From: Arthrobacter sp. NtRootA1
GTDB taxonomy: Bacteria; Actinomycetota; Actinomycetes; Actinomycetales; Micrococcaceae
Direction: 5' to 3'
Assembly: GCF_019976975.1 (NCBI RefSeq)
Contig: NZ_AP024630.1
Location: forward strand, 4,774,001 to 4,838,000
DNA length: 64,000 nucleotides
Both the position numbers and the translations under genes were made by a program. Of this stretch, positions 17,821-52,073 are shown piece by piece; position 1 is the first letter of the stretch; each line of letters starts with the position of its first letter. The notes under the pieces are model-generated. The model ran no database searches, was not told the origin of the DNA, and worked only from the letters and a program-made list of their open reading frames with translations.

Positions 17821-18747
17821 ATGATCGGCGTCCTGTCCGGGTTCTTCGTGGTGTGGGCCATCATCCTGGTGGGCATGTTCGTTGGGCGTCGCGAAATCCT
17901 GGGTGAGAACGCCCGCTCGGTCCTGAGCTCGTTGACGTTCTTCGTCGCAAGCCCGGCGCTACTCTTCGAAACCCTGAGCAAGGCCAAGCTGCACGAGGTA
18001 TTTGCCGCCCCACTGCTGGTCACTGCGGTGGGGGCCATCATCACTGGTCTGTTGTTCTTCCTGATAGTGAAGTTCTGGCTCAAGCGCACCATGCCCGAAG
18101 CCCTGATGTCATCGATGAGTGCTTCCCTGGCCAACTCGGCGAACCTGGGTATCCCGATCGCCGTCTTTGTCCTGGGCGACGCGAGCTATGTGGCGCCGCT
18201 GCTGATCTTCCAGCTGGCGTTCTTCACGCCGATGTACTTGATGGCGCTCGATGCCAGCACCAGCACCCACCGCACAACTCCCCTGCGGTTCCTGCTCATG
18301 ATCGTGAAAAACCCGATGATCGTAGGCTCGGGGCTTGGACTTCTGGTGGCAGGAACTGGTTTCCAGGTACCTACGCTCATTCTGGAACCCATCCACCTGA
18401 TTGGCGGCGCCGCGATTCCGGCCATGCTCATGGCGTTCGGCATGAGCCTGAACGGATCAAGGCCTTTGCAGAAGGACACCGGACGGCGCCTGGACACGCT
18501 GCTGGCCAGCGGGTTCAAGCTGTTCGTGCACCCTTCAATCGCTTATGTGTTTGCCCGCTTTGCCTTGGGGATGGACGGGCATGCCCTCTTCGCCGTGGTG
18601 GTGACCGCGGCGCTCCCGACGGCCCAGAACGTGTTCGTCGCCGCCACCCGCTACCGCGCCGGCGTCACCGTTGCCAAGGACACCGTGCTCATCACGACCA
18701 TCGTCGCCGTGCCAGCGATGATCGCCGTGGCGCTGCTGCTCACCTGA
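17821..18747 (+). CDS. AEC-family transporter (auxin efflux carrier type)
   Basis: A 308-residue membrane protein with about ten hydrophobic helices in two repeats, as in AEC transporters. Features are an N-terminal GFFVVWAIILVGMFVGR, the broken helix region ANSANLGIPIAVFVLGD and a C-terminal TAALPTAQNVFVAATRY, both characteristic of the family. Members move organic anions or malonate/malate-like acids; the substrate cannot be told. No strong ribosome binding site precedes the ATG. It is convergent to the trehalose-phosphatase/GH15 fusion, with repeat A copy 2 between. Confidence 0.85.
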   Translation: MIGVLSGFFVVWAIILVGMFVGRREILGENARSVLSSLTFFVASPALLFETLSKAKLHEVFAAPLLVTAVGAIITGLLFFLIVKFWLKRTMPEALMSSMSASLANSANLGIPIAVFVLGDASYVAPLLIFQLAFFTPMYLMALDASTSTHRTTPLRFLLMIVKNPMIVGSGLGLLVAGTGFQVPTLILEPIHLIGGAAIPAMLMAFGMSLNGSRPLQKDTGRRLDTLLASGFKLFVHPSIAYVFARFALGMDGHALFAVVVTAALPTAQNVFVAATRYRAGVTVAKDTVLITTIVAVPAMIAVALLLT

Positions 18748-18826: not shown

Positions 18827-21463
18827 CTACTCGACGTCAGCGCTGGCCAGATAATGGTCAAGGAGCTGTGCACACCGGATGAAGCCCAGGTGGGAGTATG
18901 CCTGCGGGTGATTACCCAGGTGCGTTTCCGAGGCAGGATCGTATTCCTCCGGTAGCAGGCCAGTAGGACCAAACAAAGCCACCAGTTGGTTGAACAGCTC
19001 CAGAGCATCGTCCAGGCGTCCAACAGCAAGGTACGCCTCGATCAGCCAGGTGGTGCAGATGTGGAAGCCGCCCTCCAAACCCGGCAGGCCGTCGTCGTAC
19101 CTGTACCTAAAGACGGTGGGACCCACACGCAGTTCGCGCTCAACGGCCGTTACGGTATCCAGGAACCGCTGGTCCTGGACATCCAGCAGGCCGGACAAGC
19201 CGATATGCAGCACTGCGGCATCCAGATCAGGGCTGTCATAGGCCACGGTGTAGGACTGCGCGGACTCGTCCCAGCCCCGCCGTAGGACTTCCTTCCGGAT
19301 CCTGGCAGCTGTCGGCGCCCAGTCCTCGTGCGCCACACGACCATGCAAAGCAGCGGTTCGCAAGGCCCGGTCCAGCGTTACCCAACACATGACCTTGGTG
19401 TATACGTGGTGCCGTGGTGGTCTACGCGCTTCCCAGATTCCGTGGTCTGGCTCGTGCCAGCGGGCAATGACGGCGTGGGCCATCTGCTCCATCAGGAACC
19501 AGTGGTCATCCGGCAGGTACCCGCGCCGCTCGCCAAGATCGTGAATCAGCTCGGCTATCGGGCCAAAGACGTCCAACTGCACCTGGTGGTCGGCCGCGTT
19601 CCCGATCCTCACCGGACGCGAACCGGCATAGCCTGGAAGGCTCTCGACGATCGCTTCCGTGGACAGTGGAGCACCGGTCACCGAGTACAGCGGGTGGAGC
19701 CACTCCGGCCCGGGCGCAGTTTCCAGGATGCGGCCAAGCCAGCGGAGGAACCCGTCGGCCTCGTCCGTAGAGCCCAAGCTCACCAAGGAATTAACGGTCA
19801 TGGAACCGTCCCGCAGCCAGCAATACCGGTAATCCCAGTTGCGCGTCCCGCCGATTCCCTCCGGCAGGGACGTAGTTGGTGCCGCAAGGACAGCACCCGT
19901 GGGCTCATGCACCAGCGACCTCAGAACCAGCGCAGAGCGCCGCACCAGTGAGGTCTTGATGGTGGGCAGCTGCAGCGTCTTGACCCACTCCCGCGCAGAC
20001 TGCCCGACGGCGGCACGCCGCGCCGGCTCTCCAACCGGGTCCGCGGGTGGCGGCTCTGTGTCACCGCAGCGCAGGTTCAGCACCACAGGACCATATTGCA
20101 GCGGCACTTCAGCGGTGGCCGTGGCGTACCTGCCGTCGCTGGTGATCTGGAAGGCAACCCCTGGCGCCGAGAGGATGATGGGATCGGAGGTGCCCATGAT
20201 GTGGACTTCCTCGCCACGGATCTCCATACTGAAGGGCGCAGTGGCATAGTCCGGCCGGGGCGCGAACACTATCCGGGCCGTACCCGTGCCGGACAGAACA
20301 CGGACCAGGCTGGTGATGCCTTCAGGTGCGGGCTCAAGATAGTCCGTCACGGTGACGTCGGCCCAACGGGTCTCCACGATCATGGTGTTGTCCACATAGC
20401 GCTGGGCGAGTACTTGCGAACGCTTGACAGGTTCGATGCTGAAGTGGCCCGCCGGTTCACCGCCCAGGATATGCGCAAACAGGGACCCCGAGTCCGGCAA
20501 GGGGTGGGTCATCCAGCAAACCTTGGCGTCAGGGGTGAGCAACGCCGTTGACGTGCCGTTGCCGATCATCGAATGCCGCTCCAGCCCCACGGCGTCCTCG
20601 CCGAACAGCCACGCCCGCCGCAGTTCGAACAACAAAGCCAGCACACGTGCAAAGGCTTCCGGATCCGGAATGGTGTGTGCCGCCGTCGTACTCTCGGGCC
20701 CGACGTGAAGACCAAGGTCAGGGCCGCGCAAAGTGGCGAGCGCCTTTTCGTCGCTTTCGGCGTCGCCCGCGTAAAGGGCAGCGCTCACACCCAGGCGCGA
20801 GCGAAGCTGCTCCAGGGCCTGGCCCTTGGCCGGTTCCTCAACGGTAAGGTCCAGCACGGAGCCGTCGATGATGAAATAGAGCCCGTACTCAATGGCAATC
20901 TGCTGGGACCGGAAGATGACGCGTTCCACCACTTCCGGCGTCGCGGGCCGGGTGTGGACAGCAACGCCCACCGGCTTGCGGACGATGCTGATGCCCTTCT
21001 CAAAAGCGACCGCTTCAGTCAATGCCGTGGCTACCTGCTGAAGCAGGGTTTCCTTGGCCAGGGACAGTGTGTACGCATAGCCCATATCGAACTCAACGCC
21101 GTGGGATCCCACCAAATGAACTTCCGCCGGCAACCTGGACACTGCAGCAAGGTCGCGCAAGGACCGGCCCGAGATGATGGCCGTATGCGTGTTGGGAAGG
21201 GCTGCGAGCGCCCGGAGTGCAACGGCTGCGCTATCCAACGGCAAGGTCTCGGTGGAGGTTCCTTCAGCTGAACAGAGAGTGCCGCCATAGTTGCACGCCA
21301 CCAGCAAACCCGGGACGCGGGCAATGGCCCTAAGCTCCGCCATCAGCTGCGGCGTGATGCCCTGCTGCGCGTCCGTCCGGAGCAAGGTCCGGAGCAGGCC
21401 AAGCGGCAGCGAGTTCATCAGCAGCGCCGAGTCTGCGGCTGATTGATTTAAGGGCGTGGGCAT
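18827..21463 (-). CDS. Fusion of a degenerate trehalose-phosphatase domain and a GH15 glycosidase
   Basis: 878 residues from the ATG at 21463 (AAGGA site 6-7 bp upstream). Residues about 50-275 are a HAD/trehalose-6-phosphate phosphatase fold: TAIISGRSLRDLA, VGSHGVEFD, KPVGVAVHTR and AGDAESDE match its motifs. The catalytic motif normally reading DxDGT is NYGGT here (residues 58-62), so both catalytic aspartates are missing and phosphatase activity is unlikely. Residues about 290-870 are a GH15 domain (GGTRNWDYRYCWLRDG, the acidic GIWE near 675-678, LLPEEYDP near 840), as in bacterial glucoamylases and actinobacterial trehalases. Likely role: hydrolysis of an alpha-glucoside, perhaps trehalose, with the dead domain structural or ligand-sensing. 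Cytoplasmic; no signal peptide. Confidence 0.85.
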   Translation of the reverse strand: MPTPLNQSAADSALLMNSLPLGLLRTLLRTDAQQGITPQLMAELRAIARVPGLLVACNYGGTLCSAEGTSTETLPLDSAAVALRALAALPNTHTAIISGRSLRDLAAVSRLPAEVHLVGSHGVEFDMGYAYTLSLAKETLLQQVATALTEAVAFEKGISIVRKPVGVAVHTRPATPEVVERVIFRSQQIAIEYGLYFIIDGSVLDLTVEEPAKGQALEQLRSRLGVSAALYAGDAESDEKALATLRGPDLGLHVGPESTTAAHTIPDPEAFARVLALLFELRRAWLFGEDAVGLERHSMIGNGTSTALLTPDAKVCWMTHPLPDSGSLFAHILGGEPAGHFSIEPVKRSQVLAQRYVDNTMIVETRWADVTVTDYLEPAPEGITSLVRVLSGTGTARIVFAPRPDYATAPFSMEIRGEEVHIMGTSDPIILSAPGVAFQITSDGRYATATAEVPLQYGPVVLNLRCGDTEPPPADPVGEPARRAAVGQSAREWVKTLQLPTIKTSLVRRSALVLRSLVHEPTGAVLAAPTTSLPEGIGGTRNWDYRYCWLRDGSMTVNSLVSLGSTDEADGFLRWLGRILETAPGPEWLHPLYSVTGAPLSTEAIVESLPGYAGSRPVRIGNAADHQVQLDVFGPIAELIHDLGERRGYLPDDHWFLMEQMAHAVIARWHEPDHGIWEARRPPRHHVYTKVMCWVTLDRALRTAALHGRVAHEDWAPTAARIRKEVLRRGWDESAQSYTVAYDSPDLDAAVLHIGLSGLLDVQDQRFLDTVTAVERELRVGPTVFRYRYDDGLPGLEGGFHICTTWLIEAYLAVGRLDDALELFNQLVALFGPTGLLPEEYDPASETHLGNHPQAYSHLGFIRCAQLLDHYLASADVE

Positions 21464-21574
21464 AGCGGATCCTTCCACTGCGGATAGCTATAGTCTCCGC
21501 CTGTGGAGTTTCGGCGTCATGCCTAAATCATTGCAAATGCGTAAAGCTTTCGAATTTATTTTCGAGGCCGGCGC

Positions 21575-22564
21575 CTACGCCCTCACAAGCCCCGCAACTT
21601 CGGCAACCAGTTCCACCGAGCGCAGGCGTTCCTGGGTGCCAATGCTCTGGTGGGCGACGATGAGTTCGTCCGCATCGGAGTGCTTGGCGAACTCGTCAAG
21701 GTAGTCGCGCACAACGTCCGGCGTACCGACGGCGGAGTACTTCATCATTTGGGAAATGTGCTGGCCTTGCGGGGAATCCAGCACCATATCCGCTTCGTCA
21801 TCCGTGAACTGCCGGCCGCCGCCAAAGAACAGCGAGACACGGGCACGCTTCACGGCGAGATGGATCGCCTGGGCCTCGGCATTGCTGTCCGCTGCAGTGA
21901 CGTTAACCCCTGCGATCACGTGCGGTTCGGACAGCTGTTCCGAGGGCTTGAAGTCCCTGCGGTAAATAGCCACGGCATCCTGCAAGGCGGCAGGCGCGAA
22001 GTGCGAAGCGAACGCGTAGGGCAGACCAAGCTGCGCAGCCAGCTGTGCCCCAAACAGCGAGGAACCCAGGATGTACAGCGGCACGTTGGTGCCCTTTCCC
22101 GGGGTCGCTTCGACACCCTGGATACGAGTAGGTCCGGTGAGGTAGCCCTGCAGTTCCAGGACATCCTGCGGGAAAGCATCCGAGGACGTATGGTCGCGGC
22201 GAAGCGCACGCATGGTGTTCTGGTCACTGCCCGGGGCGCGGCCAAGGCCTAGATCGATGCGTCCCGGGTGCAGGGTCTCCAGGGTGCCGAACTGCTCGGC
22301 GATAGTCAACGGCGAGTGGTTGGGAAGCATGACGCCGCCGGCCCCAAGCCGGATGGTGTTCGTGTGGGCGGCGACGTGCGCGATCAGCACACTCGTGGCC
22401 GAGGAAGCGATGGCTGACATGTTGTGGTGCTCGGCGTACCAGACCCGGCGATAGCCCAGCTCTTCGGCCTTCTGCGCCATGGCAACGCTGCCGGCGAGGC
22501 TTTCCGCCACGGTCTGGCCCTTTCCGATGGTTGCCAGGTCCAGGATGGAAAGAGGAACAGTCAC
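21575..22564 (-). CDS. LLM-class flavin-dependent oxidoreductase
   Basis: About 329 residues from a GTG at 22564 (AAAGG 7 bp upstream); longer in-frame starts exist but lack a good site. A bacterial-luciferase-like TIM barrel: [14 protein letters not shown] at the N terminus, [47 protein letters not shown] and a conserved [15 protein letters not shown]. Such enzymes use reduced FMN or F420 on diverse substrates; the subgroup resembles MsnO8-like proteins. No flavin reductase or pathway genes are adjacent, so no substrate is proposed. Confidence 0.85.
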
Positions 22565-22709
22565 GGGGATGCCTTTCGGTACGTTTCGCGGCACCCGCAC
22601 TGTTGGTTGGCGGGCACTCTAGCGACAACGACGGCGGTCCCCGGCTTATTTCTGTGAGTTGCGTCGCGCAGGGGCTACTTTCGCCGCGTCCCTGAATCCA
22701 CGCGCCCTT

Positions 22710-34090: not shown

Positions 34091-36375
34091 CAGCGTCCTT
34101 CCAGCTTCGTGTTTCGTTCAGTCTTGCTGCTTGCTTCGCCAACGCTTCCCCTTGCGTGGCCTGTTGACGCGCTGTCCCCAGGAGCGGCGCCATCGGTCGC
34201 TTCAGTCGTTTGAGTAGTCATGGCCGTCGGGTTGGCTGAGGCCGGGCGGCCGGCCAACTTGGCATCGCGGTCAGCGAGCCGGGCAAACATATCGTTATAA
34301 GCACTGAGATCGGCGTCGTTATTCCTGTCGGCCGCACGGTCCACCCGTCGGGTCTCCCGCTCGTCCGAGCGTGACCACATGACGGCTACGCCAATTGCCA
34401 CCAACAAGGTGGGAACTTCACCAATGCCCCAAGCCACGGCACCACCCATTTGCTGGTCTGCAATGGCCGAGGCACCCCAGGTCCGGCCCAGGTTGCCGAA
34501 GTAGTCAGCAGCCAGCAGGCCAGTGCCGCCCATAATGGCCACGCCAAAGAACGCGTGGAACCCCATGGTTGCGAGGAGGAGCAGCAGGCGCATGGGATAC
34601 GGCGCACGTCGCGGCAGTGGATCACTGCCGATCATGCTGAGCACAAAAATGTAGCCCGTCAGCAGGAAGTGCACATTCATCAGCTCATGGCCTACGTGCT
34701 CCCGCATCGCCAGGCCGAAAAGGTCCGAGTAGTAGAACAGCACGATGGATCCCGCGAAGTTCGCAGCGGCGAACAGCGGATGAGTCACCACCTGCGAGAA
34801 CCGGGAGTGGACGAACAGGAGCAGCCACTCCCGAAGACCCCGCGAACCGTGCGCGCCTTCACCCCGGGAAGGGAGTGCACGCAGCGCGAGGGTCACCGGC
34901 GAACCCAACACCAGGAAGATCGGTGCCACCATGGTCAGGGCCATGTGATCCACCATGTGGGCAGAAAACAGTACGCGGCCATAGACAGCTGGCGGACCAG
35001 ACGTGATGTAGGTGAGAATCACCAGTCCAATCATCCAGGTCACTGTCTTGAACCAGGACCAGCTATCCCCGCGCTTGCGGATCTTGATGATCCCGAGGAT
35101 GTAGGACACGGCGCCGAATAAGGCCACTCCCACCCACAGCCAGTCAAAACGCCATTCCGTAAGCCAGCGCTCGGGGGTAAGTTCCGGCGGAAGTTCATAG
35201 CCGGACAGGATGAAGGCCGGCGAGGCGTCCGGTGCGTACGTGGTGGGCTGCGGCGGGGCCGAGCGCCCCAGCGCGACGGCGAGGCCCGACGTCGCGCCCA
35301 TCACCAGCAGCTCAACCAGAACCAGCTGCCACAGCACCCGGCGGGCAGACATCGAACCGCTCTTTCCCAGCTGAGGTATGACCCATTGACGATGCATGAA
35401 GCCGATGCCACCCAGCACCAGGGTGGCAAGTGCCTTGGCAAGGATGATTTGCCCATAGGCAGAGCCAAACAGATCGCCCAGGTTCGTCACGCGGATGGCT
35501 GCATTTATCACACCGGACGCAAACACCAGAACGAAAGCAAAGCCTGCCAGGGCCGAGAACCTTCGGAGAGTCGGTTCGGTGATGTCGCTCGTCCCAGACT
35601 TCCTGGAACCAGCGAGCAATCCGGAAAGGACTGCGAGCATGATGATGCCTCCCACCCACACGGAGACTCCAACCAGGTGAAGGCCCAGCGAGTTGATGGC
35701 GCCTTCGTGATCACTGGAGCTGGAGGAGTGACCGATCAGTGCGGTCGGAATCAGCCCGATCAGGGCAAGCAGGAGCGTAAAGGCGAGGCCAGTCAGCGAT
35801 CGGACGCCGAAGAGCGCGGTGGTGACAACCGCAGCAATGATGGTGATGGACAGCCAGGCCTTGCCCGTATCTATGTCCGTCATGAAGTACACCAGCGAGC
35901 GGGTGAATTCAGCGTCCCCGGAAAGTCCCTGACCCGCGACATCCGCGTAGGTCAATACCAGGACAGCTACGGCGGACAGCGTCCAAGCGGCACCTGCCGC
36001 CGCGGCAACGGCAAGGGCGCGTGCAAAAGCTGGATGCTCCGGAGCCTCCAGATCCTTTTCACGGGATCGCGACCCTCTGAGGTTCTTGGGCAGGATTCCG
36101 ACCGCGAAGATGAGGCCACCAATAACTGTCGCTATGGAAGCGTTGTGGACGGCTTTCGCCACCGGCAAGCCCCATCGAACCAGCGCACCGGGGTCCGAAA
36201 CCTGGCGGGCAGCAGAAGCACCGGAGAAGACGAGGGCAGCAGCCAAAGTCAGGAAGAGCACCGCCAGTCCAGCAAGCTGCCATGGGACGGAAATGCCCGT
36301 GACGGCATTGCCGCCCCGCGCTCCCGGCTTGGGAACAGGCGATGGGGCAGTTGCGGAGCTTCTTGCTGATGGCAC
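34090..36375 (-). CDS. Fused CopD copper-resistance / CtaG cytochrome oxidase assembly membrane protein
   Basis: About 761 residues with numerous membrane helices. The N-terminal half (to about residue 370) has the CopD-type core (GLHLVGVSVWVGGIIMLAVLSGL, then GVINAAIRVTNLGDLFGSAYG). The C-terminal half from about 400 is the CtaG/caa3 assembly domain with SAHMVDHMALTMVAPIFLVLG, whose histidines may bind copper, and HVGHELMNVHFLLTGYIF. The charged last 100 residues are cytoplasmic low-complexity sequence. The fusion is usual in actinobacteria and should move or hold copper for terminal oxidase assembly. GTG start without a strong site. Couples to the thioredoxin/NHL gene. Confidence 0.88.
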   Translation of the reverse strand: MPSARSSATAPSPVPKPGARGGNAVTGISVPWQLAGLAVLFLTLAAALVFSGASAARQVSDPGALVRWGLPVAKAVHNASIATVIGGLIFAVGILPKNLRGSRSREKDLEAPEHPAFARALAVAAAAGAAWTLSAVAVLVLTYADVAGQGLSGDAEFTRSLVYFMTDIDTGKAWLSITIIAAVVTTALFGVRSLTGLAFTLLLALIGLIPTALIGHSSSSSDHEGAINSLGLHLVGVSVWVGGIIMLAVLSGLLAGSRKSGTSDITEPTLRRFSALAGFAFVLVFASGVINAAIRVTNLGDLFGSAYGQIILAKALATLVLGGIGFMHRQWVIPQLGKSGSMSARRVLWQLVLVELLVMGATSGLAVALGRSAPPQPTTYAPDASPAFILSGYELPPELTPERWLTEWRFDWLWVGVALFGAVSYILGIIKIRKRGDSWSWFKTVTWMIGLVILTYITSGPPAVYGRVLFSAHMVDHMALTMVAPIFLVLGSPVTLALRALPSRGEGAHGSRGLREWLLLFVHSRFSQVVTHPLFAAANFAGSIVLFYYSDLFGLAMREHVGHELMNVHFLLTGYIFVLSMIGSDPLPRRAPYPMRLLLLLATMGFHAFFGVAIMGGTGLLAADYFGNLGRTWGASAIADQQMGGAVAWGIGEVPTLLVAIGVAVMWSRSDERETRRVDRAADRNNDADLSAYNDMFARLADRDAKLAGRPASANPTAMTTQTTEATDGAAPGDSASTGHARGSVGEASSKTERNTKLEGR

Positions 36376-36494
36376 CTATCCATTGTCCGTTACGTGCGGC
36401 TGCGCTGCGAATCGGGAACCATTTGGGGAGGAGAAGTGGGCACCGGCAAGCGGATGCCGCCTTGGTGTGCGGGACAAGTGATTGCTTAACGGCA

Positions 36495-36528
36495 AAAGGG
36501 ACGGCAACCAGTTGGTTGCCGTCCCTTT
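36495..36528 (-). terminator. Terminator of the HU gene
   Basis: AAAGGGACGGCAACCA (36495-36510) and TGGTTGCCGTCCCTTT (36513-36528) give a perfect 16-bp stem with a 2-bp loop. Read on the minus strand it ends in a TTTT run, as expected for a rho-independent terminator. Confidence 0.85.
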
Positions 36529-36550
36529 CAGGCGTTCGCCGAAGTTGGAA

Positions 36551-36838
36551 TTACTTCTTCTTGGCGACAGCAGCCTTCAGCTTGGAGCCTGCGGTCAGCT
36601 TAACGCTGTGGCCAGCGGCGATCTGGATGGTTTCGCCCGTCTGCGGGTTGCGGCCGGTGCGTGCTGCACGGTCGGTACGCTCAACTGCGAGCCAGCCCGG
36701 GATGGTGATCTTCTCGCCAGCGGCAACAGAAGTCTCGAAAACTTCGAACAGTGCATCGAGCACGGAGTTGACGGCTGCCTGGCTCGTGCCAGCCTTGCCT
36801 GCTACCTCTGCAACGAGTTCACTACGGTTCTTAGCCAT
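36551..36838 (-). CDS. hup: HU-family nucleoid DNA-binding protein
   Basis: A 95-residue histone-like protein that bends DNA and compacts the nucleoid. The N-terminal [17 protein letters not shown] helix pair, the beta-arm tip region (GRNPQTGETIQIAAG) and the C-terminal KLTAGSKLKAAV are clear. It lacks the long lysine-rich tail of mycobacterial HupB, ending simply in KKK. AGGAGG stands 6 bp before the ATG and a strong terminator follows, consistent with high expression. Confidence 0.95.
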   Translation of the reverse strand: MAKNRSELVAEVAGKAGTSQAAVNSVLDALFEVFETSVAAGEKITIPGWLAVERTDRAARTGRNPQTGETIQIAAGHSVKLTAGSKLKAAVAKKK

Positions 36839-37132
36839 TTACGTCCTCCTGGACTAATACGTTTTTTGAGCTTTCAAGCGGAATGCGAGCAAGCCACTGC
36901 TCGAAAACTTACCAGCTTGCACCGACTTGGCCAGCAAATTCCGCGTGTTTCCGCGCTTTTTTGACCAAAATCACCGGTTTTTCAGGGTTTTTGGGGGTGT
37001 GGACCGCACATGGCGTACCCTACGGCGTTGAACGGGCCACCAGCCAGCGTAAGAAATCACGACGCCGACAGCCACCGCCGGGAGTTGCACGCGGCTAGCC
37101 ATCGCGGCTTCAGAGCATCCAACCGACGTGGA

Positions 37133-37699
37133 TCAGAAGAGAATACGCTGATACAGGAAGTGGTCCTGCCATTCGCCTGCTATGTGGAGATACGACCGCG
37201 CCATTCCGAGCCGCTCGAAGCCGGATCGTTTGAGGACTGCCTGCGAGGCTAAGTTATGCAGCAGGGTTGCCGCTTGGATACGGTGGAGTCCCAGATCTTC
37301 GCTGGCCATGGAGAGAACCGCCTCTACCGAAGAAGTGGCAATGCCCTTGCCGGCGAACGCTTGGTCGACCCAGTAACCCAGGTTGGCGTTCATGAATGGT
37401 CCACGGACTATGCCCGTCAAAGTAATCATGCCAACGACATCCCCGTCATGGAGAACTACCCACGGAACTTCCGTGCCTGCGGCATACTGGCTCAGTTTGC
37501 TCCGAACAACGGCCTCTTGCCCTGCCCTGGTATAGAACGCCTCGCTGCGCAGTGGTTCCCATGGGGCGAGGTACTCAGCGTTCCGGGTATAGGCGGCCGC
37601 CAAGGGCTCGACGTCGGACAGGGACAAAGTCCGAAGGTGGACTCTTCCATTCGCGGCGTTCCCAGATGGGGCATCCAAAGTTCGGGTCAGGGTCATCAT
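37133..37699 (-). CDS. RimJ/RimL-type GNAT acetyltransferase
   Basis: A 188-residue acetyltransferase starting at one of two adjacent ATGs (37699 or 37696). The acetyl-CoA motif is YWVDQAFAGKGIATSSVEAVL, followed by HRIQAATLLHNLASQAVLKR and SGFERLGMARSYLHI, as in ribosomal-protein alanine acetyltransferases. Located just downstream of the first rrn operon, whose terminator lies 33 bp before its start. Target unproven. Confidence 0.85.
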   Translation of the reverse strand: MMTLTRTLDAPSGNAANGRVHLRTLSLSDVEPLAAAYTRNAEYLAPWEPLRSEAFYTRAGQEAVVRSKLSQYAAGTEVPWVVLHDGDVVGMITLTGIVRGPFMNANLGYWVDQAFAGKGIATSSVEAVLSMASEDLGLHRIQAATLLHNLASQAVLKRSGFERLGMARSYLHIAGEWQDHFLYQRILF

Positions 37700-37732
37700 G
37701 CGACTCTAGCTCTTTGATTGCCCGTTAAAGTG

Positions 37733-37765
37733 GGGAAGCCCCGACCGTGGTGGTCGGGGCTTCCC
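37733..37765 (-). terminator. Terminator of rrn operon 1
   Basis: GGGAAGCCCCGACC (37733-37746) and GGTCGGGGCTTCCC (37752-37765) form a perfect 14-bp stem with a 5-bp loop just after 5S rRNA on the minus strand. The copy for operon 2 is at 45191. Confidence 0.85.
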
Positions 37766-37775
37766 GTTAATTGTT

Positions 37776-37893
37776 GTCCGGCGGTGTCCTACTCTCCCAC
37801 ACCCTCCCGGGTGCAGTACCATCGGCGCTGTGGGTCTTAGCTTCCGGGTTCGGAATGGGACCGGGCGTTTCCCCCACGCTATGACCGCCGTAA
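37776..37893 (-). rRNA. rrf: 5S ribosomal RNA, operon 1
   Basis: Read on the minus strand, the segment begins with GTTACGGCGGTCATAGCGTG and ends near GGACACCGCCGGAC, whose ends pair as in 5S rRNA. The internal CCCATTCCGAACCCGGAAG is diagnostic. Ends are accurate to a few bases. Last gene of a 16S-23S-5S operon. Confidence 0.95.
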
Positions 37894-38045
37894 CCTTGTT
37901 ACCCGACCCCGCCTGTGCCGGTTTGTGGTTCCGGTTGGGGGTGGGAAGTCTGTGTGGTTACAACTGTGTGGTGTTGTTATTCAGTTGTTGGTTCCTGGAA
38001 CGGTTGTTGTTCGGGAACCACATAGTGGACGCGTGCAGTGTTGTG

Positions 38046-43266
<5,221 letters not shown>

Positions 43267-43600
43267 AACAAAAAATCAAACAGACACAACCACACCCACC
43301 GGAAATAACGGCAAGAACGCGGCTGCACAAAATTCGAAACCAGCTGAAAACCAGACCACCACACACGGGGGTGCGCAACGGCCCGGCCATAATTTCAACC
43401 AATCAAAAAACAATCGGCATCAACAAACTTGGCACACTATTGAGTTCTCAAACAACAGACCCCCCAAAACATCACCCCGCACAGCGCACCACAAAAGCAG
43501 CACACCCAACAAGGCCATTGGAAAAGAAGAGTTATTTTTGGCCGCCTACCGAACCGTACACACCTTCCGGCTTTCCGTTTCGCACCCGGCGACTCAGAAA
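43267..43600 (-). other. rrn operon 1 leader with boxA-like element
   Basis: Transcribed leader between promoter and 16S. At 43433-43458 (minus strand) lies TGTTGTTTGAGAACTCAATA, which resembles the actinobacterial rrn boxA/antitermination region. Sequence up to 43458 matches operon 2 except for a few bases around 43378-43384. Upstream of 43458 the two leaders diverge. No gene here. Confidence 0.7.
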
Positions 43601-43629
43601 ACAATACACGCCCCACACCCCCAACGCAA
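43601..43629 (-). promoter_or_regulatory. rrn operon 1 promoter
   Basis: On the minus strand TTGCGT (43629-43624) and TATTGT (43606-43601) are separated by 17 bp. Directly downstream is TTCTGAGTCGCCG, shared with the operon 2 promoter though the surrounding sequences differ. Inferred. Confidence 0.7.
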
Positions 43630-43729
43630 ATCCACCCCCACACCACCCAACACACCCCCAAAAACCCCCGCCAGCCCGCCGTCGAACATTCGTTCAGAGG
43701 CGCGGCAATAGGCCAGTTACGATTCGCCT

Positions 43730-44686
43730 TCAGTCAAGAAAGTCAAGCATTCCGAAGTGGCGATGCAGACCATCGTCGAGGAATCGCATGATCGATGCGA
43801 TCTTGTCGCCAGTCTGAGTTGGCTCAATCACCAAGAGTCCCCGGGCCCGGCTCTGCAGATAACAGACGAACGCCGGCCTGCCACCGGCAGTGACAGCAAC
43901 CAGGGCGTAATTGCCGCCAGGCCTGCCGGCCGCACTGGCTCGGAGGAAATTCCCGACGGCGTGCTGGCCCACGTAAAGTTCGTTGGCCGGGGGCATGGCA
44001 AGCCAGCATTGATCGGTGAGGAGCTCAAGGACGGAATCGACGTCGTCTCGCGAGAAAGCATCCGCAAACTTACGGGCTAAATCGTGGTGGTGTGCTCCGG
44101 TCGCAATTGGCCCTGGAGAAGGCCTGACGGAGCGGGCTCGCTGAAGAAGACCCTTAGCCGCCGTCGGGCCTACCGCGAGCATCTCAGCAGCTTCAGCAAC
44201 GGTGAAATCCAACACATCGCAGAGGATCAACACTGCAGCCTGGCGCGGCGGCATCCGTTGAAGCGCAACGACAAACGCGAGCTCGACGCTTTCGCGGGCA
44301 ACCGCCTGCACAGCAGGATCAAGCTCGTCGACCAATACATCGGGGTAAGGCTGCAAATGCGGTTGATCGAATCGGTCGTTCGGAGTTGGCGGCTCGAAGG
44401 GAGGTACGGGAGCAGAGCGAGGTCGGCGACTTTGTTCCCTTAGAGCATTGAGCGAGCGAGTAGTGGCAATCCGATAGAGCCAGGTCCGCAAGGACGATCG
44501 GCCGGCAAACCCAGGCAACCCTTTCCATGCCGCCAGCAAAACCTCCTGCAGAACGTCATCTGCATCATCCACAGATCCTGTAATTCTGTAGCAATGCAGA
44601 TGAAGCTCCCGGCGAAAGGGTGCTACGAGCGAGGCAAAAGCCTCCTCATCGCCGGACCGGGCGGCCTCCAACTCGGCTGATGTCAC
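43730..44686 (-). CDS. ECF sigma factor with C-terminal SnoaL-like domain
   Basis: 318 residues, RNA polymerase sigma subunit of the extracytoplasmic-function class resembling mycobacterial SigG/SigJ-type factors. Region 2 is SFRRELHLHCY-like with GSVDDADDVLQEVLLAAWKG; region 4 is LQRMPPRQAAVLILCDVLDF with AAEMLAVGPTAAKGLLQRAR. Residues about 200-318 form a SnoaL/NTF2-like fold (LARKFADAFSRDDVDSVLEL), which in such sigma factors replaces a classical anti-sigma as the control module. Located between two rrn operons and divergent from a SnoaL-like gene 92 bp away. No anti-sigma gene nearby. Confidence 0.88.
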   Translation of the reverse strand: MTSAELEAARSGDEEAFASLVAPFRRELHLHCYRITGSVDDADDVLQEVLLAAWKGLPGFAGRSSLRTWLYRIATTRSLNALREQSRRPRSAPVPPFEPPTPNDRFDQPHLQPYPDVLVDELDPAVQAVARESVELAFVVALQRMPPRQAAVLILCDVLDFTVAEAAEMLAVGPTAAKGLLQRARSVRPSPGPIATGAHHHDLARKFADAFSRDDVDSVLELLTDQCWLAMPPANELYVGQHAVGNFLRASAAGRPGGNYALVAVTAGGRPAFVCYLQSRARGLLVIEPTQTGDKIASIMRFLDDGLHRHFGMLDFLD

Positions 44687-44778
44687 GGTTCAATCTTGGC
44701 ACGGACCCTTGAAGGCGTTCCGATCTGCTGCGAAGTGGTGTCTAAACAGGAGTATCCGCCTACGAAAGGAACCAGACC

Positions 44779-45156
44779 ATGTCTGAAAAGCAAGCCAAAG
44801 CCGTCGAGATCGCAGTCGCCTACCACCGGGCCTGGACAACCGGCAACCTGGACTCAGCCATCAAGCACTTAGCCGAGGATGTCACCTGCCATGCACCGTC
44901 CGGCACCATGAACGGTAGTGCCGCTGTCAGGGCCTTCATGGAGCCCTTCGCTGCTACGCTCACAAAATCTGCACTTCTTGCGGCTTACGGGTCCGACGAC
45001 GAAGCGATACTCATGTACGACACAGCCAATCGGGCAGTTCCGAGCGCACCGGGCGCGGAACTGTATCGCATTCACAACGATCAGATCGCCGAGATCCACA
45101 TCATCTTCGATCGTCTGCCTTTCGCCTTGGCACGTGGCGACGTCGTGGGGACCTGA
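44779..45156 (+). CDS. SnoaL/NTF2-like small protein
   Basis: A 125-residue cone-shaped NTF2-like fold protein (VEIAVAYHRAWTTGNLDSAI, LAEDVTCHAPSGTMNGSAAV, and a C-terminal YRIHNDQIAEIHIIFD). AGGA lies 11 bp before the ATG. Members bind or isomerise small ligands; no catalytic residues can be assigned. It is divergent from a sigma factor carrying the same fold at its C terminus and is a plausible target of that sigma factor. Ends 35 bp before the rrn operon 2 terminator. Confidence 0.82.
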   Translation: MSEKQAKAVEIAVAYHRAWTTGNLDSAIKHLAEDVTCHAPSGTMNGSAAVRAFMEPFAATLTKSALLAAYGSDDEAILMYDTANRAVPSAPGAELYRIHNDQIAEIHIIFDRLPFALARGDVVGT

Positions 45157-45190
45157 GCACCTGATGTGGTTGTTAGCAGTGGTTAAAGTG

Positions 45191-45223
45191 GGGAAGCCCC
45201 GACCGTGGTGGTCGGGGCTTCCC
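45191..45223 (-). terminator. Terminator of rrn operon 2
   Basis: Same 14-bp stem and loop as at 37733, offset by 7458 bp. Confidence 0.85.
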
Positions 45224-45233
45224 GTTAATTGTT

Positions 45234-45351
45234 GTCCGGCGGTGTCCTACTCTCCCACACCCTCCCGGGTGCAGTACCATCGGCGCTGTGGGTCTTAGCT
45301 TCCGGGTTCGGAATGGGACCGGGCGTTTCCCCCACGCTATGACCGCCGTAA
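45234..45351 (-). rRNA. rrf: 5S ribosomal RNA, operon 2
   Basis: Copy of the 5S gene at 37776, with no difference noticed. Ends accurate to a few bases. Confidence 0.95.
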
Positions 45352-45503
45352 CCTTGTTACCCGACCCCGCCTGTGCCGGTTTGTGGTTCCGGTTGGGGGT
45401 GGGAAGTCTGTGTGGTTACAACTGTGTGGTGTTGTTATTCAGTTGTTGGTTCCTGGAACGGTTGTTGTTCGGGAACCACATAGTGGACGCGTGCAGTGTT
45501 GTG

Positions 45504-50724
<5,221 letters not shown>

Positions 50725-51160
50725 AACAAAAAATCAAACAGACACAACCACACCCACCGGAAATAACGGCAAGAACGCGGCTGCACAAAATTCGAAACCA
50801 GCTGAAAACCAGACCACCACACACGGGGGTGCGCAGCAACCTGGCCATAATTTCAACCAATCAAAAAACAATCGGCATCAACAAACTTGGCACACTATTG
50901 AGTTCTCAAACAACAGGTCACTATTCCAGAGCAGTACCAACCAAAACCCAAAGGGCCTCAGAATCGCTCCGGAGCAACTTTTCAAACTTACCCGATCAAC
51001 CAGATCTTTGCAAATCAGCGTTTCCGCAATTACCGATCCAGTCCCCGGCCCCACCATCACAGGCACGCTCAAAAGCGAACCATATTCCAGGCTGTCATCA
51101 AAGGGGGTCGGCCCCCGCGGCTCCCAGCACCAGGCTGTCTCACTCGCGGCGACTCAGAAG
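50725..51160 (-). other. rrn operon 2 leader with boxA-like element
   Basis: The boxA-like TGTTGTTTGAGAACTCAATA lies at 50891-50916 (minus strand). From 50917 to 51160 the leader is unlike that of operon 1 and about 100 bp longer. It contains no gene that I can support. Confidence 0.65.
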
Positions 51161-51189
51161 ACATTACACGCCCACAAGCCCCGACACAA
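51161..51189 (-). promoter_or_regulatory. rrn operon 2 promoter
   Basis: On the minus strand TTGTGT (51189-51184) and TAATGT (51166-51161) with a 17-bp spacer, followed by CTTCTGAGTCGCCG as in the operon 1 promoter. Confidence 0.7.
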
Positions 51190-51426
51190 ATCCACCCCCA
51201 CACCACCCAAAACCCCGCAAACACACGCCAAACACCCCCACCCAAGACCCAAAACCAGCCCAAAACCACCAAAACAACTTTCCGTGAAGCCCATCACACC
51301 AAGAAACGGCGACACTCCCCTGCCCTTTGAAGCGGCACCCAGGATCCGCCGTCGGGCCTAATCCAGCGGCCGACATCGGCCAGGCCAACAGCCTCTGAAT
51401 TCAAGGGCAGCCGCCCCAGACACGTC

Positions 51427-51545
51427 AGGATGTGCGAGAGCAACAGCCCAAACACGCCACGATGTGCGAGAGCAACCGCCCAAGCCCCGCGGGAAGTGAG
51501 AGAACGATGCTCGAAAACAACGATTATGTGAGCGAGCAACTGGAA
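51427..51545. repeat. 32-bp-period repeat, family C, locus 1
   Basis: Four degenerate units with the core GTGxGAGmGmrc start at 51432, 51464, 51496 and 51528, exactly 32 bp apart. The third unit, GGGAAGTGAGAGAA, is the closest to the units at 58198. The flanks 51190-51426 and 51546-51716 hold no recognised gene; an imperfect hairpin TCCCTGACC / GGTTAGGGA is seen near 51592-51618. Confidence 0.7.
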
Positions 51546-51720
51546 GGCGGCGGTTATCCGGCAGCCCCAAGAGGGCCCACGGCGACAGGGTTCCCTGACC
51601 GAGCTCGCGAGGTTAGGGAGTCGACGGGGACGGGACGAGCGAGCGCACAGAGGATGACCGCCGCCTTTACCCCGCCCACCGCCGCCACCTTTACCCGCCA
51701 AAGAGCCACTTAAACGCAGA

Positions 51721-51754
51721 AAAGGCCGGCAACCATAACGGTTGCCGGCCCTTT
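51721..51754 (-). terminator. Terminator of the rpmB-rpmG-rpsN operon
   Basis: On the minus strand AAAGGGCCGGCAACC and GGTTGCCGGCCTTT pair with a single bulge around the loop GTTAT and run into TTTTC. It lies 13 bp after rpsN. Confidence 0.85.
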
Positions 51755-51767
51755 CAGAGCTTCGTGA

Positions 51768-52073
51768 TTACCAGGAAGACTTGGTGATACCCGGGAGCTC
51801 ACCGCGGTGAGCCATGTCGCGGAAGCGAACACGGGAGATACCGAACTTCTGGAAGGTGCCGCGGGGACGGCCGTCGATCTGGTCGCGGTTACGCAGACGG
51901 ATCGGGGAGGCGTTGCGGGGCAGCTTCTGCAGGCCGAGGCGTGCAGCTTCGCGTGCTTCGTCAGTCGCGTTGGGGTCAACCAGGGTCTTCTTCAGTTCGA
52001 GACGCTTGGCAGCGTAACGCTCAACAATGACCTTGCGCTGCTCGTTGCGAGCAATCTTGGACTTCTTTGCCAT
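51768..52073 (-). CDS. rpsN: 30S ribosomal protein S14, zinc-independent type
   Basis: 101 residues, the long form of S14. It has no CxxC pairs, so it is the zinc-free (C-minus) type. Core: [20 protein letters not shown], the central RNAs-contacting [20 protein letters not shown] and [25 protein letters not shown] at the C terminus. GAGGAG lies 10 bp before the ATG inside the rpmG stop region. Third gene of rpmB-rpmG-rpsN. Confidence 0.96.

Follow-up and report, generated by a model that had tools for sequence, protein, structure and literature searches.

A trehalose-phosphatase-like domain with broken catalytic motifs is conserved in a GH15 trehalase-type protein of Arthrobacter

Why would a bacterium keep a phosphatase domain that lacks its catalytic residues in the same chain as a glycosidase? 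This question is raised by P0001, a protein encoded in a window of 64,000 nucleotides (the whole stretch of DNA that we analysed) from Arthrobacter sp. NtRootA1. P0001 is encoded by a single intact frame with a GTG start (Table 1). A sequence-only reading of the same DNA had placed the gene at 18827-21463; its frame was correct but its start was not, because 21463 is an in-frame ATG five codons downstream of the GTG. The residues that it numbered 58-62 are therefore residues 63-67 here. The permease-like and LLM-type oxidoreductase-like genes beside P0001 are conserved neighbours and lie outside the system.

Table 1. Positions in the window of the P0001 gene, its domains and motifs, and the neighbouring genes
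Feature	Position	Strand	Basis
P0001, whole gene: pseudo-T6PP HAD domain + TREH_N + GH15, 883 aa	18827..21478	minus	ORF and Pfam
HAD core, first part, residues 54-136	21071..21319	minus	Rossmann-like strands and helices in model; block pLDDT 64-91
Motif I, NYGGT replacing DYDGT, residues 63-67	21278..21292	minus	alignment, genome pattern search
Motif II, SGR, residues 103-105, retained	21164..21172	minus	S and R 59/59
C2B-like cap, about residues 137-213, retained here, absent in g62 and Nocardiopsis	20840..21070	minus	
Motif III Lys, K218, retained	20825..20827	minus	59/59
HAD core, second part, residues 214-291	20606..20839	minus	dN/dS blocks, model
Motif IV, GDAESDE, residues 238-244, second Asp of GDD gone	20747..20767	minus	alignment
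TREH_N domain, residues 285-492	20003..20626	minus	Pfam, 287.9 bits
GH15 catalytic domain, residues 509-870	18869..19954	minus	Pfam, 192.7 bits; fold match 5z3c
E683 of GIWE, putative general acid	19430..19432	minus	invariant alignment column
E844 of LLPEE, putative general base	18947..18949	minus	column nearly invariant
Permease-like neighbour (named by eye)	17821..18747	plus	beside the fusion in 23/24 group loci
LLM-type oxidoreductase-like neighbour (named by eye)	21575..22600	minus	17/24 group loci, flanks short

The sequence-only reading had described a trehalose-phosphatase-like domain fused to a GH15 glycosidase. Pfam bears this out: Trehalose_PPase (53.1 bits, Pfam cut-off 27), TREH_N and Glyco_hydro_15 all match, the last two being the domain set of GH15 trehalases. 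The score with TIGR00685 was 61, against a curated cut-off of 68.05. Every motif that had been named is present (SGR, GSHGVEFD, KPVGVAVHTR, GDAESDE, GIWE and LLPEEYDP, together with NYGGT). The predicted structure has a mean pLDDT of 87.5 and a pTM of 0.82. In the VIA-align fold comparison 329 of its residues were matched to the glycosidase 5z3c with a Z of 38.3 and an rmsd of 2.4; the rows of that comparison span residues 297-881, and the HAD identity rests on sequence matches.

Set against the trehalose-6-phosphate (T6P) phosphatases (T6PP; OtsB, PF02358/TIGR00685), the domain has the SGR of motif II, the Lys of motif III and the cap between them, which comprises 79 aligned residues and forms helices and strands in the model. 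Motif I, DxDGT in T6PPs, reads NYGGT, and motif IV, GDDxxDE in T6PPs, reads GDAESDE. The GDA form occurs in 59/59 Arthrobacter-group sequences, whereas the second Asp of GDD is present in 91/91 intact fused relatives. The cap has also changed. Its Gly-Lys pair (G 90/91 and K 82/91 in the intact relatives) is Asp-Gly in 32/32 Arthrobacter-group rows, and the Lys position aligns with G206 of P0001. Thus, the earlier claim that only the catalytic motif had been lost holds for the loss of motif I but not for its selectivity. These changes suggest that the domain would be inactive as a phosphatase.

The replacement of motif I is not peculiar to one strain. A codon search for ACNYGGT found the NYGGT pattern in 172 of 206 genus genomes (reversed control pattern, 12/206, so the matches are not due to chance), and the same 172 carry the fusion, which was called from a best E value below 1e-150, with the span confirmed among the matches listed. 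N-x-G is therefore fixed across the genus, in that all 172 fusion-bearing genomes match the pattern, which excludes an isolated mutation or a sequencing error. Sister strains with DxDGT were not found, and the motif was NYGGT in all seven fusions sampled outside the genus, which come from five genera of the same family, in agreement with the earlier suggestion of a repurposed, conserved domain. The pattern extends to another family: in genus g62 it was present in 23/23 fusions, and the fusion and pattern searches picked out the identical 23 of 57 genomes. Intermediates that had lost a single Asp of motif I were not found among the family and g62 genomes sampled. Among the genus matches listed the frame is open except for one stop in G088; the fusion is broken in the assemblies of G039 and G079, and G102 has no visible full-length frame. 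The Arthrobacter group was assigned from the near-identical loci L049 and L115, and L043 and L116 are probably one strain counted twice.

Fused relatives with intact motifs show the direction of this change. OtsB-GH15 fusions of Nocardia, Rhodococcus, Amycolatopsis, Micromonospora and Brevibacterium have the three domains of P0001, arranged alike, and are homologous to it from end to end, that of N. farcinica being about 51% identical. They have a DYDGT-type motif I and GDDxxDE, in contrast to the NYGGT and GDA of P0001; both motif I Asp and both GDD Asp were present in all 91 other fused relatives aligned, a count that includes three incomplete sequences (88 without them) and some near-duplicates. 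Left out of the alignment were 27 genus loci that are nearly identical (L005-L031) and a further 19 that are unfused, partial or duplicates. As distant fused relatives keep DYDGT, the change was a loss from an intact form. The intact forms would presumably have phosphatase activity.

Two lineages have lost the cap. The g62 fusions are about 70 residues shorter, lacking nearly the entire cap and also the K218 position, and the Nocardiopsis fusion is capless, with DYDGA as motif I and with GGGxGEE. In a quick tree of the GH part, with long branches and 112 chosen rows, every degenerate group formed one clade (SH-aLRT 99, 99 and 100) and Nocardiopsis fell apart from Arthrobacter. Nocardiopsis degenerated separately, by a different route from the Arthrobacter group. 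The best reading is that a change from a two-activity OtsB-GH15 enzyme to GH15 with a pseudophosphatase happened at least twice. Some genus labels were taken from identical GH parts: G568 as Nocardiopsis (L120), G370 as Brevibacterium (L133) and G601 as Nocardia (L157).

Is the domain simply decaying? The loss of its catalytic motifs, and the absence of the cap or of the entire domain in relatives, would fit a functionless relic, but the pattern of selection makes this most improbable. In the Arthrobacter group the median dN/dS was 0.034 for the first part of the core, 0.195 for the cap, 0.096 for the second part of the core and 0.072 for GH15 (up to 150 pairs, with GH15 identities of 80-97%); these values are rough because dS averages 1.1 to 1.4 and is near saturation. 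The corresponding medians were 0.037, 0.202, 0.168 and 0.113 in intact Nocardia and 0.138, 0.410, 0.221 and 0.081 in intact Brevibacterium. Thus, constraint in the Arthrobacter-group protein is strongest in the first part of the dead core, and the cap is no less constrained than that of intact Nocardia. A pseudogene is ruled out by the low dN/dS; true decay looks different, as in the second copies of G131, which is split across frames, and G092, which has no long frame.

Constraint of this kind might also reflect altered chemistry, the domain acting as another phosphatase or as a transferase. Such a catalyst could use the pocket Lys, Ser and Arg and the one GDD Asp that are retained, and it would explain a cap as constrained as that of intact Nocardia. 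But HAD phosphoryl transfer proceeds via an Asp nucleophile, which P0001 lacks, and Brugia T6PP had no detectable activity once either Asp of motif I was replaced, according to the available part of PMC4081830. We consider this reading very improbable, if slightly less so than a relic.

A non-catalytic role could be purely structural: the HAD core would bind nothing, and TREH_N and GH15 would pack or assemble on it. In favour of this, two lineages have shed the cap and retained the core, and the core segment that follows SGR hardly varies among degenerate and intact fusions but, by eye, is not conserved in the standalone OtsB that the window genome encodes. On the other hand, the Arthrobacter-group cap is under the constraint just described, and pocket residues are retained that a scaffold would not need. 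Relatives without a HAD domain also exist (Lentzea L191 and copies in Nocardiopsis G1037, G1046 and G1036), so GH15 does not always require it. We hold a pure scaffold as a tentative possibility, at somewhat less than even chances.

Alternatively, as a special case of the non-catalytic role, the dead pocket may bind T6P and switch the GH15 trehalase fused to it, with trehalose being broken down according to the T6P level. In the Arthrobacter group S103, R105, K168, H175 and K218 are each retained in 59/59 sequences and R177 in 58/59, and the same anion and cap residues are retained in 7/7 fusions from the five other genera. The solved T6PP chain 5dx9, which we take to be a T6P complex, reads NYDGT, with Asn at the nucleophile position. 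In Arthrobacter A3, as described in an excerpt of PMC5685639, T6P is at about 2 mM and falls by about 40% after salt stress; its level tracks that stress. Several features argue against a T6P sensor. The cap Lys is replaced, E166 is V or M in 32/59 sequences, and the conservation of four cap ligand positions taken jointly (E166 included) did not clearly exceed that of random cap sites (fraction 0.073). The residue numbers K176, E180 and R142 are presumably those of fungal Tps2. Additionally, the cap, which is the element that covers the sugar, is missing from both g62 and Nocardiopsis, and g62 also lacks the K218 position. T6P sensing is possible where the cap is retained and unlikely where it is gone; as a whole we regard it as doubtful. 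The narrower proposal, in which the phosphatase half has become an in-chain sensor of its former substrate, giving a T6P-gated trehalase in the Arthrobacter group, while capless relatives retain the scaffold alone, seems to us a shade more doubtful. If true, it would link the breakdown of trehalose to the stress signalling by T6P that has been reported for Arthrobacter A3.

In the GH15 part both putative catalytic Glu are present, E683 being invariant and E844 nearly invariant among 49 sequences; we take these to be the general acid and general base positions of GH15. From its sequence we infer that this part is a trehalase, but its nearest solved structures are of glucoamylase, dextran dextrinase and glucodextranase types, so trehalose is a putative substrate. 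The score against the TreH1 equivalog of NCBIfam, an archaeal model, was 348.7 (cut-off 820), and a Foldseek search with the model of a capless fusion returned GH15-type and related barrels.

An additional PF02358 gene was present in 22/22 genomes with a degenerate fusion versus 11/19 with an intact one, a contrast that rests on related genomes in hand-chosen samples, with the motifs of the second gene read in the window genome. In 8 of the 19 the intact fusion is the sole PF02358 gene. A second PF02358 gene also accompanies the intact fusion in 8/8 Brevibacterium genomes, so redundancy does not force loss. Of 13 similarly hand-chosen genomes with an intact fusion, 5 have otsA next to it or in one frame with it and 8 do not; otsA was adjacent to the degenerate fusion in 0/5.

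Based on these results, we consider it likely that P0001 is a hydrolase of the GH15 trehalase type that carries its own pseudophosphatase, retained for a non-catalytic role, and that the protein derives from a two-activity OtsB-GH15 enzyme. The ancestor would have converted T6P to trehalose and trehalose to glucose; many actinobacteria still encode such fusions. Before the Arthrobacter-group and g62 gene lines split, the nucleophile would have changed from D to N, the acid/base from D to G and the motif IV metal ligand from D to A; transfer between the two families is possible. A separate OtsB could have supplied phosphatase activity while the motifs were lost. Since then the HAD core may have been retained without catalysis, as a structural or regulatory element that would act on the GH15 enzyme, and in capped forms an anionic sugar is probably still the ligand of the pocket. 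Several observations weigh against this model: the constraint on the core could stem from folding alone, that on the cap also fits a residual other activity, and dS is near saturation. The HAD-less GH15 relatives, the intact fusions of Brevibacterium and the intact fusions away from otsA count against it as well.

The surviving series comprises intact fusions, a dead form with its cap that is fixed in several genera, and two degenerate capless lineages. Because these forms coexist in nature, the purpose of the dead phosphatase domain can be tested directly on variants that soil bacteria already supply, and the P0001 family offers a natural test of how a dead domain of an enzyme can stay useful. 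There is also an implication for annotation: a published Arthrobacter CAZyme table lists the gene of P0001 as an active T6PP, EC 3.1.3.12 (PMC8171050, in the part available), and its phosphatase motifs are broken. Among the matches listed from the CC-licensed PMC literature, we found no paper on an OtsB-GH15 pseudophosphatase.

Inactive domains of this family are already known, both as eukaryotic TPP domains and as the T6PP-like protein OtsB1. The GH15 trehalases of mycobacteria and archaea (TreH1) share TREH_N and GH15 with P0001 but, to our knowledge, have no HAD domain. The fusion partner of OtsB1 is presumably GH65, whereas that of P0001 is GH15, and P0001 gave no GH65 match. OtsB1 of M. 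tuberculosis (Rv2006) is likewise a large T6PP-like protein without T6PP activity, and its role is given as unknown in the accessible part of PMC11046441. Among eukaryotic TPS/TPP proteins some TPP-like domains lack catalytic residues and are still under selection, and yeast Tps3 and Tsl1 are named as regulatory only (PMC1769515, from an excerpt). There the partner of the pseudo-TPP is TPS (GT20); P0001, in contrast, is bacterial, has GH15 as its partner and no PF00982 match, and belongs to a family in which two lineages have lost the cap.

The protein predicted from the window gene joins Trehalose_PPase, TREH_N and Glyco_hydro_15 domains (53.1, 287.9 and 192.7 bits in Pfam). The sequence-only reading began it at an ATG, which lies in the same frame and gives 878 residues; the GTG start in the table replaces it. 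That reading also held that motif I was the only loss, which was wrong: motif IV reads GDAESDE, whereas GDD occurs in 91/91 aligned intact fused relatives, and in the cap, the HAD domain lid between motifs II and III, the Gly-Lys of these relatives (Gly 90/91, Lys 82/91) is Asp-Gly in 32/32 Arthrobacter group rows of the same alignment. All 59 group sequences retain SGR, the Lys of motif III and, in the cap, K168 and H175; R177, also in the cap, is retained in 58 of them.

Features of the OtsB-like/GH15 fusion in the window
Feature	Position	Strand	Remark
Fusion gene	18827-21478	minus	883 residues from GTG
HAD motif I	residues 63-67		reads NYGGT

NYGGT is fixed in the genus and is no accident. 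The ACNYGGT codon pattern was found in 172 of 206 genomes (reversed control pattern, 12/206), and these are the same 172 that have a best protein match at E <1e-150; the other 34 had neither the pattern nor such a match. The check proposed in the sequence-only reading, whether N-x-G is constant across the genus, was positive for the fusion-bearing genomes. Among the matches listed, synonymous positions of these codons differ and the residues are constant; named members with NYGGT include Paenarthrobacter histidinolovorans (locus L175) and, from Arthrobacter, three strains (L115, L116, L144). A family-wide search of 295 genomes found the fusion at E <1e-150 in 24, seven of them from five other genera, and all seven had NYGGT and GDA. 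In g62, a genus from another family of the same order, the fusion and the codon pattern occurred in the same 23 of 57 genomes. The flanks are conserved within the genus: in short flanks, 23/24 group loci had a permease-like neighbour and 17/24 an LLM-like one.

Some copies were irregular. NYGGT codons also stand in second copies, one split over frames (L195, genome G131 contig C13) and one without a long frame (L196, G092), and G201 has a second codon-pattern match. At L198 (G039) and L199 (G079) the fusion is broken over several frames in the assemblies, where sequencing error is possible. Elsewhere in the window, GC falls to 0.56-0.58 at 36001-52000, against about 0.61-0.64 outside it, with negative GC skew that is strongest at 40001-44000 and 48001-52000.

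The altered domain remains under constraint. In the Arthrobacter group (59 sequences, 150 pairs), the median dN/dS of first HAD core, cap, second core, TREH_N and GH15 was 0.034, 0.195, 0.096, 0.108 and 0.072, in that order; the corresponding values were 0.037, 0.202, 0.168, 0.260 and 0.113 in ten intact Nocardia fusions and 0.138, 0.410, 0.221, 0.187 and 0.081 in 22 from Brevibacterium, all of them rough because dS is high (1.1 to 1.4 in the group). Thus, the dead core is as constrained as that of Nocardia and more so than that of Brevibacterium, and the cap is not relaxed. In the group, dN was lower in the first core (0.053) than in GH15 (0.074). AlphaFold2 predicted both HAD core and cap as folded (mean pLDDT 87.5, pTM 0.82). 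The modelled GH part matched dextran dextrinase 9ju0 (Z 39.0), the GH15-type glycosidase 5z3c (Z 38.3, rmsd 2.4, 329 residues), a bacterial glucoamylase and Arthrobacter glucodextranase; such matches of a predicted fold leave the substrate unsettled.

The fusion is widespread. Among the best 80 of 588 relatives in named genomes, it occurred at least in Nocardia, Rhodococcus, Mycobacterium, Mycobacteroides, Amycolatopsis, Saccharopolyspora, Actinokineospora, Micromonospora, Streptomyces, Brevibacterium and Nocardiopsis, and on contigs labelled Acidimicrobiia, Planctomycetota, Acidobacteria and Ardenticatenales. Both motif I Asp and both GDD Asp were present in 91/91 aligned fusions outside the Arthrobacter group, g62 and Nocardiopsis, and an ATDYDGT codon pattern was found in 55/57 genomes of the G210 genus, identified as Brevibacterium by matching named members. 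In a Sulfitobacter plasmid record (L082), otsB and a GH15 gene are neighbours, not fused. A quick-search tree of 112 rows, built on TREH_N and GH15, placed each of the three degenerate groups in one clade (SH-aLRT 99, 99, 100), with Arthrobacter and g62 as sisters (100), Brevibacterium as sister to both (100) and Nocardiopsis among intact fusions. This implies two or more losses of the catalytic motifs and two or more of the cap. One row under the name Glycomyces fuscus (L118) nests in Nocardiopsis, and we take its label as doubtful.

Nocardiopsis genomes had a relative at E <1e-130 in 33 of 40 cases, including partial matches in G1033 and G1054. Of 36 sequences inspected, in which named and unnamed entries may duplicate one strain, 35 read DYDGA and GGGxGEE, with 2 to 13 residues replacing the cap; the remaining one (L219) has GGG and a front part out of frame. 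Since DYDGA keeps both motif I Asp, motif IV is the destroyed one, and Nocardiopsis degenerated separately, by a different route from Arthrobacter. The model of a capless Nocardiopsis protein (mean pLDDT 85.3, pTM 0.77) has a loop of low confidence, residues 106-118, at the cap site. In g62, NYGGT and the second core are separated by 69 to 71 fewer residues than in the window protein (23/23 genomes); 12 aligned sequences have 9 to 10 residues at the cap place, against 76 to 86 in intact fusions, and S or A at the motif III Lys position (12/12), where the alignment is less sure next to the deletion. Closely related GH15 proteins that lack the HAD domain were seen in Lentzea aerocolonigenes (L191), G1037 (C1:4384686-4386422), G1046 (C1:2294331-2296064) and G1036, which among the matches listed has HAD-less copies only; they are a possible end point of domain reduction.

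All 22 hand-chosen degenerate-fusion genomes (10 from the genus, 6 g62, 6 Nocardiopsis) carried a further PF02358 gene, whereas 8 of 19 intact-fusion genomes had no other (Fisher p 0.0008, among related genomes and uncorrected for kinship). The motif check of this second gene covered the window genome only: there it is a standard OtsB of 267 aa with DFDGT and GDD, adjoining OtsA at 877 kb, against 4,795 kb for the fusion. PF00982 (OtsA) matched in 20/20 genomes tested. Four genomes (G590, G681, G728, G501) have OtsA directly adjoining an intact fusion. A single open frame of 1339 codons in G610 (C7:329-4240, L113) encodes OtsA, OtsB and GH15 together, possibly a three-enzyme trehalose fusion. 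OtsA did not adjoin the fusion in the remaining 8 of 13 intact genomes tested, and the fusion lay far from otsA in 5/5 degenerate ones tested (G000, G099, G470, G568, G705). An intact fusion was the sole PF02358 gene found, with OtsA present, in G601, G611, G743, G728, G501, G711, G680 and G610; a trehalose-making phosphatase there would therefore be joined to a trehalase-like domain. Beside its GH15 fusion, G529 carries three further PF02358 genes (C98, C62, C8), whose frames span 1387-1457 codons, sizes resembling OtsB1-type proteins.

We propose that the ancestral enzyme converted trehalose 6-phosphate (T6P) to trehalose and also split trehalose. The first activity was most likely lost in lineages with a spare OtsB, and the HAD core retained within the GH15 enzyme. 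The Arthrobacter group also kept the cap and several anion-binding residues, so that T6P, or a different sugar phosphate, may act as effector there; as g62 and Nocardiopsis have lost the cap, their core can hardly bind T6P in the fashion of a phosphatase. We infer the absence of phosphatase activity, the trehalase activity and the regulation of the fusion protein. According to PMC5685639, T6P is abundant in Arthrobacter A3 and drops on salt stress.

Among the matches listed from CC-licensed PMC literature, we found no description of a bacterial OtsB-GH15 pseudophosphatase. The PAMC25564 CAZyme table (Arthrobacter sp.; PMC8171050) names GH15 entry 943180_945807 'Trehalose-6-phosphate phosphatase'. 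Our G099 fusion lies at C1:943180-945792 and has NYGGT (L046); by this match, the table almost certainly presents this very gene as an active enzyme. A GH65 entry of that table (342376_339176), also named trehalose-6-phosphate phosphatase, is possibly an OtsB1-like fusion. In PMC11046441, M. tuberculosis OtsB1 is described as without T6P phosphatase activity and of unknown function. PMC1769515 offers a parallel to the dead domain described here: eukaryotic TPS/TPP fusions contain inactive TPP domains that are under selection.
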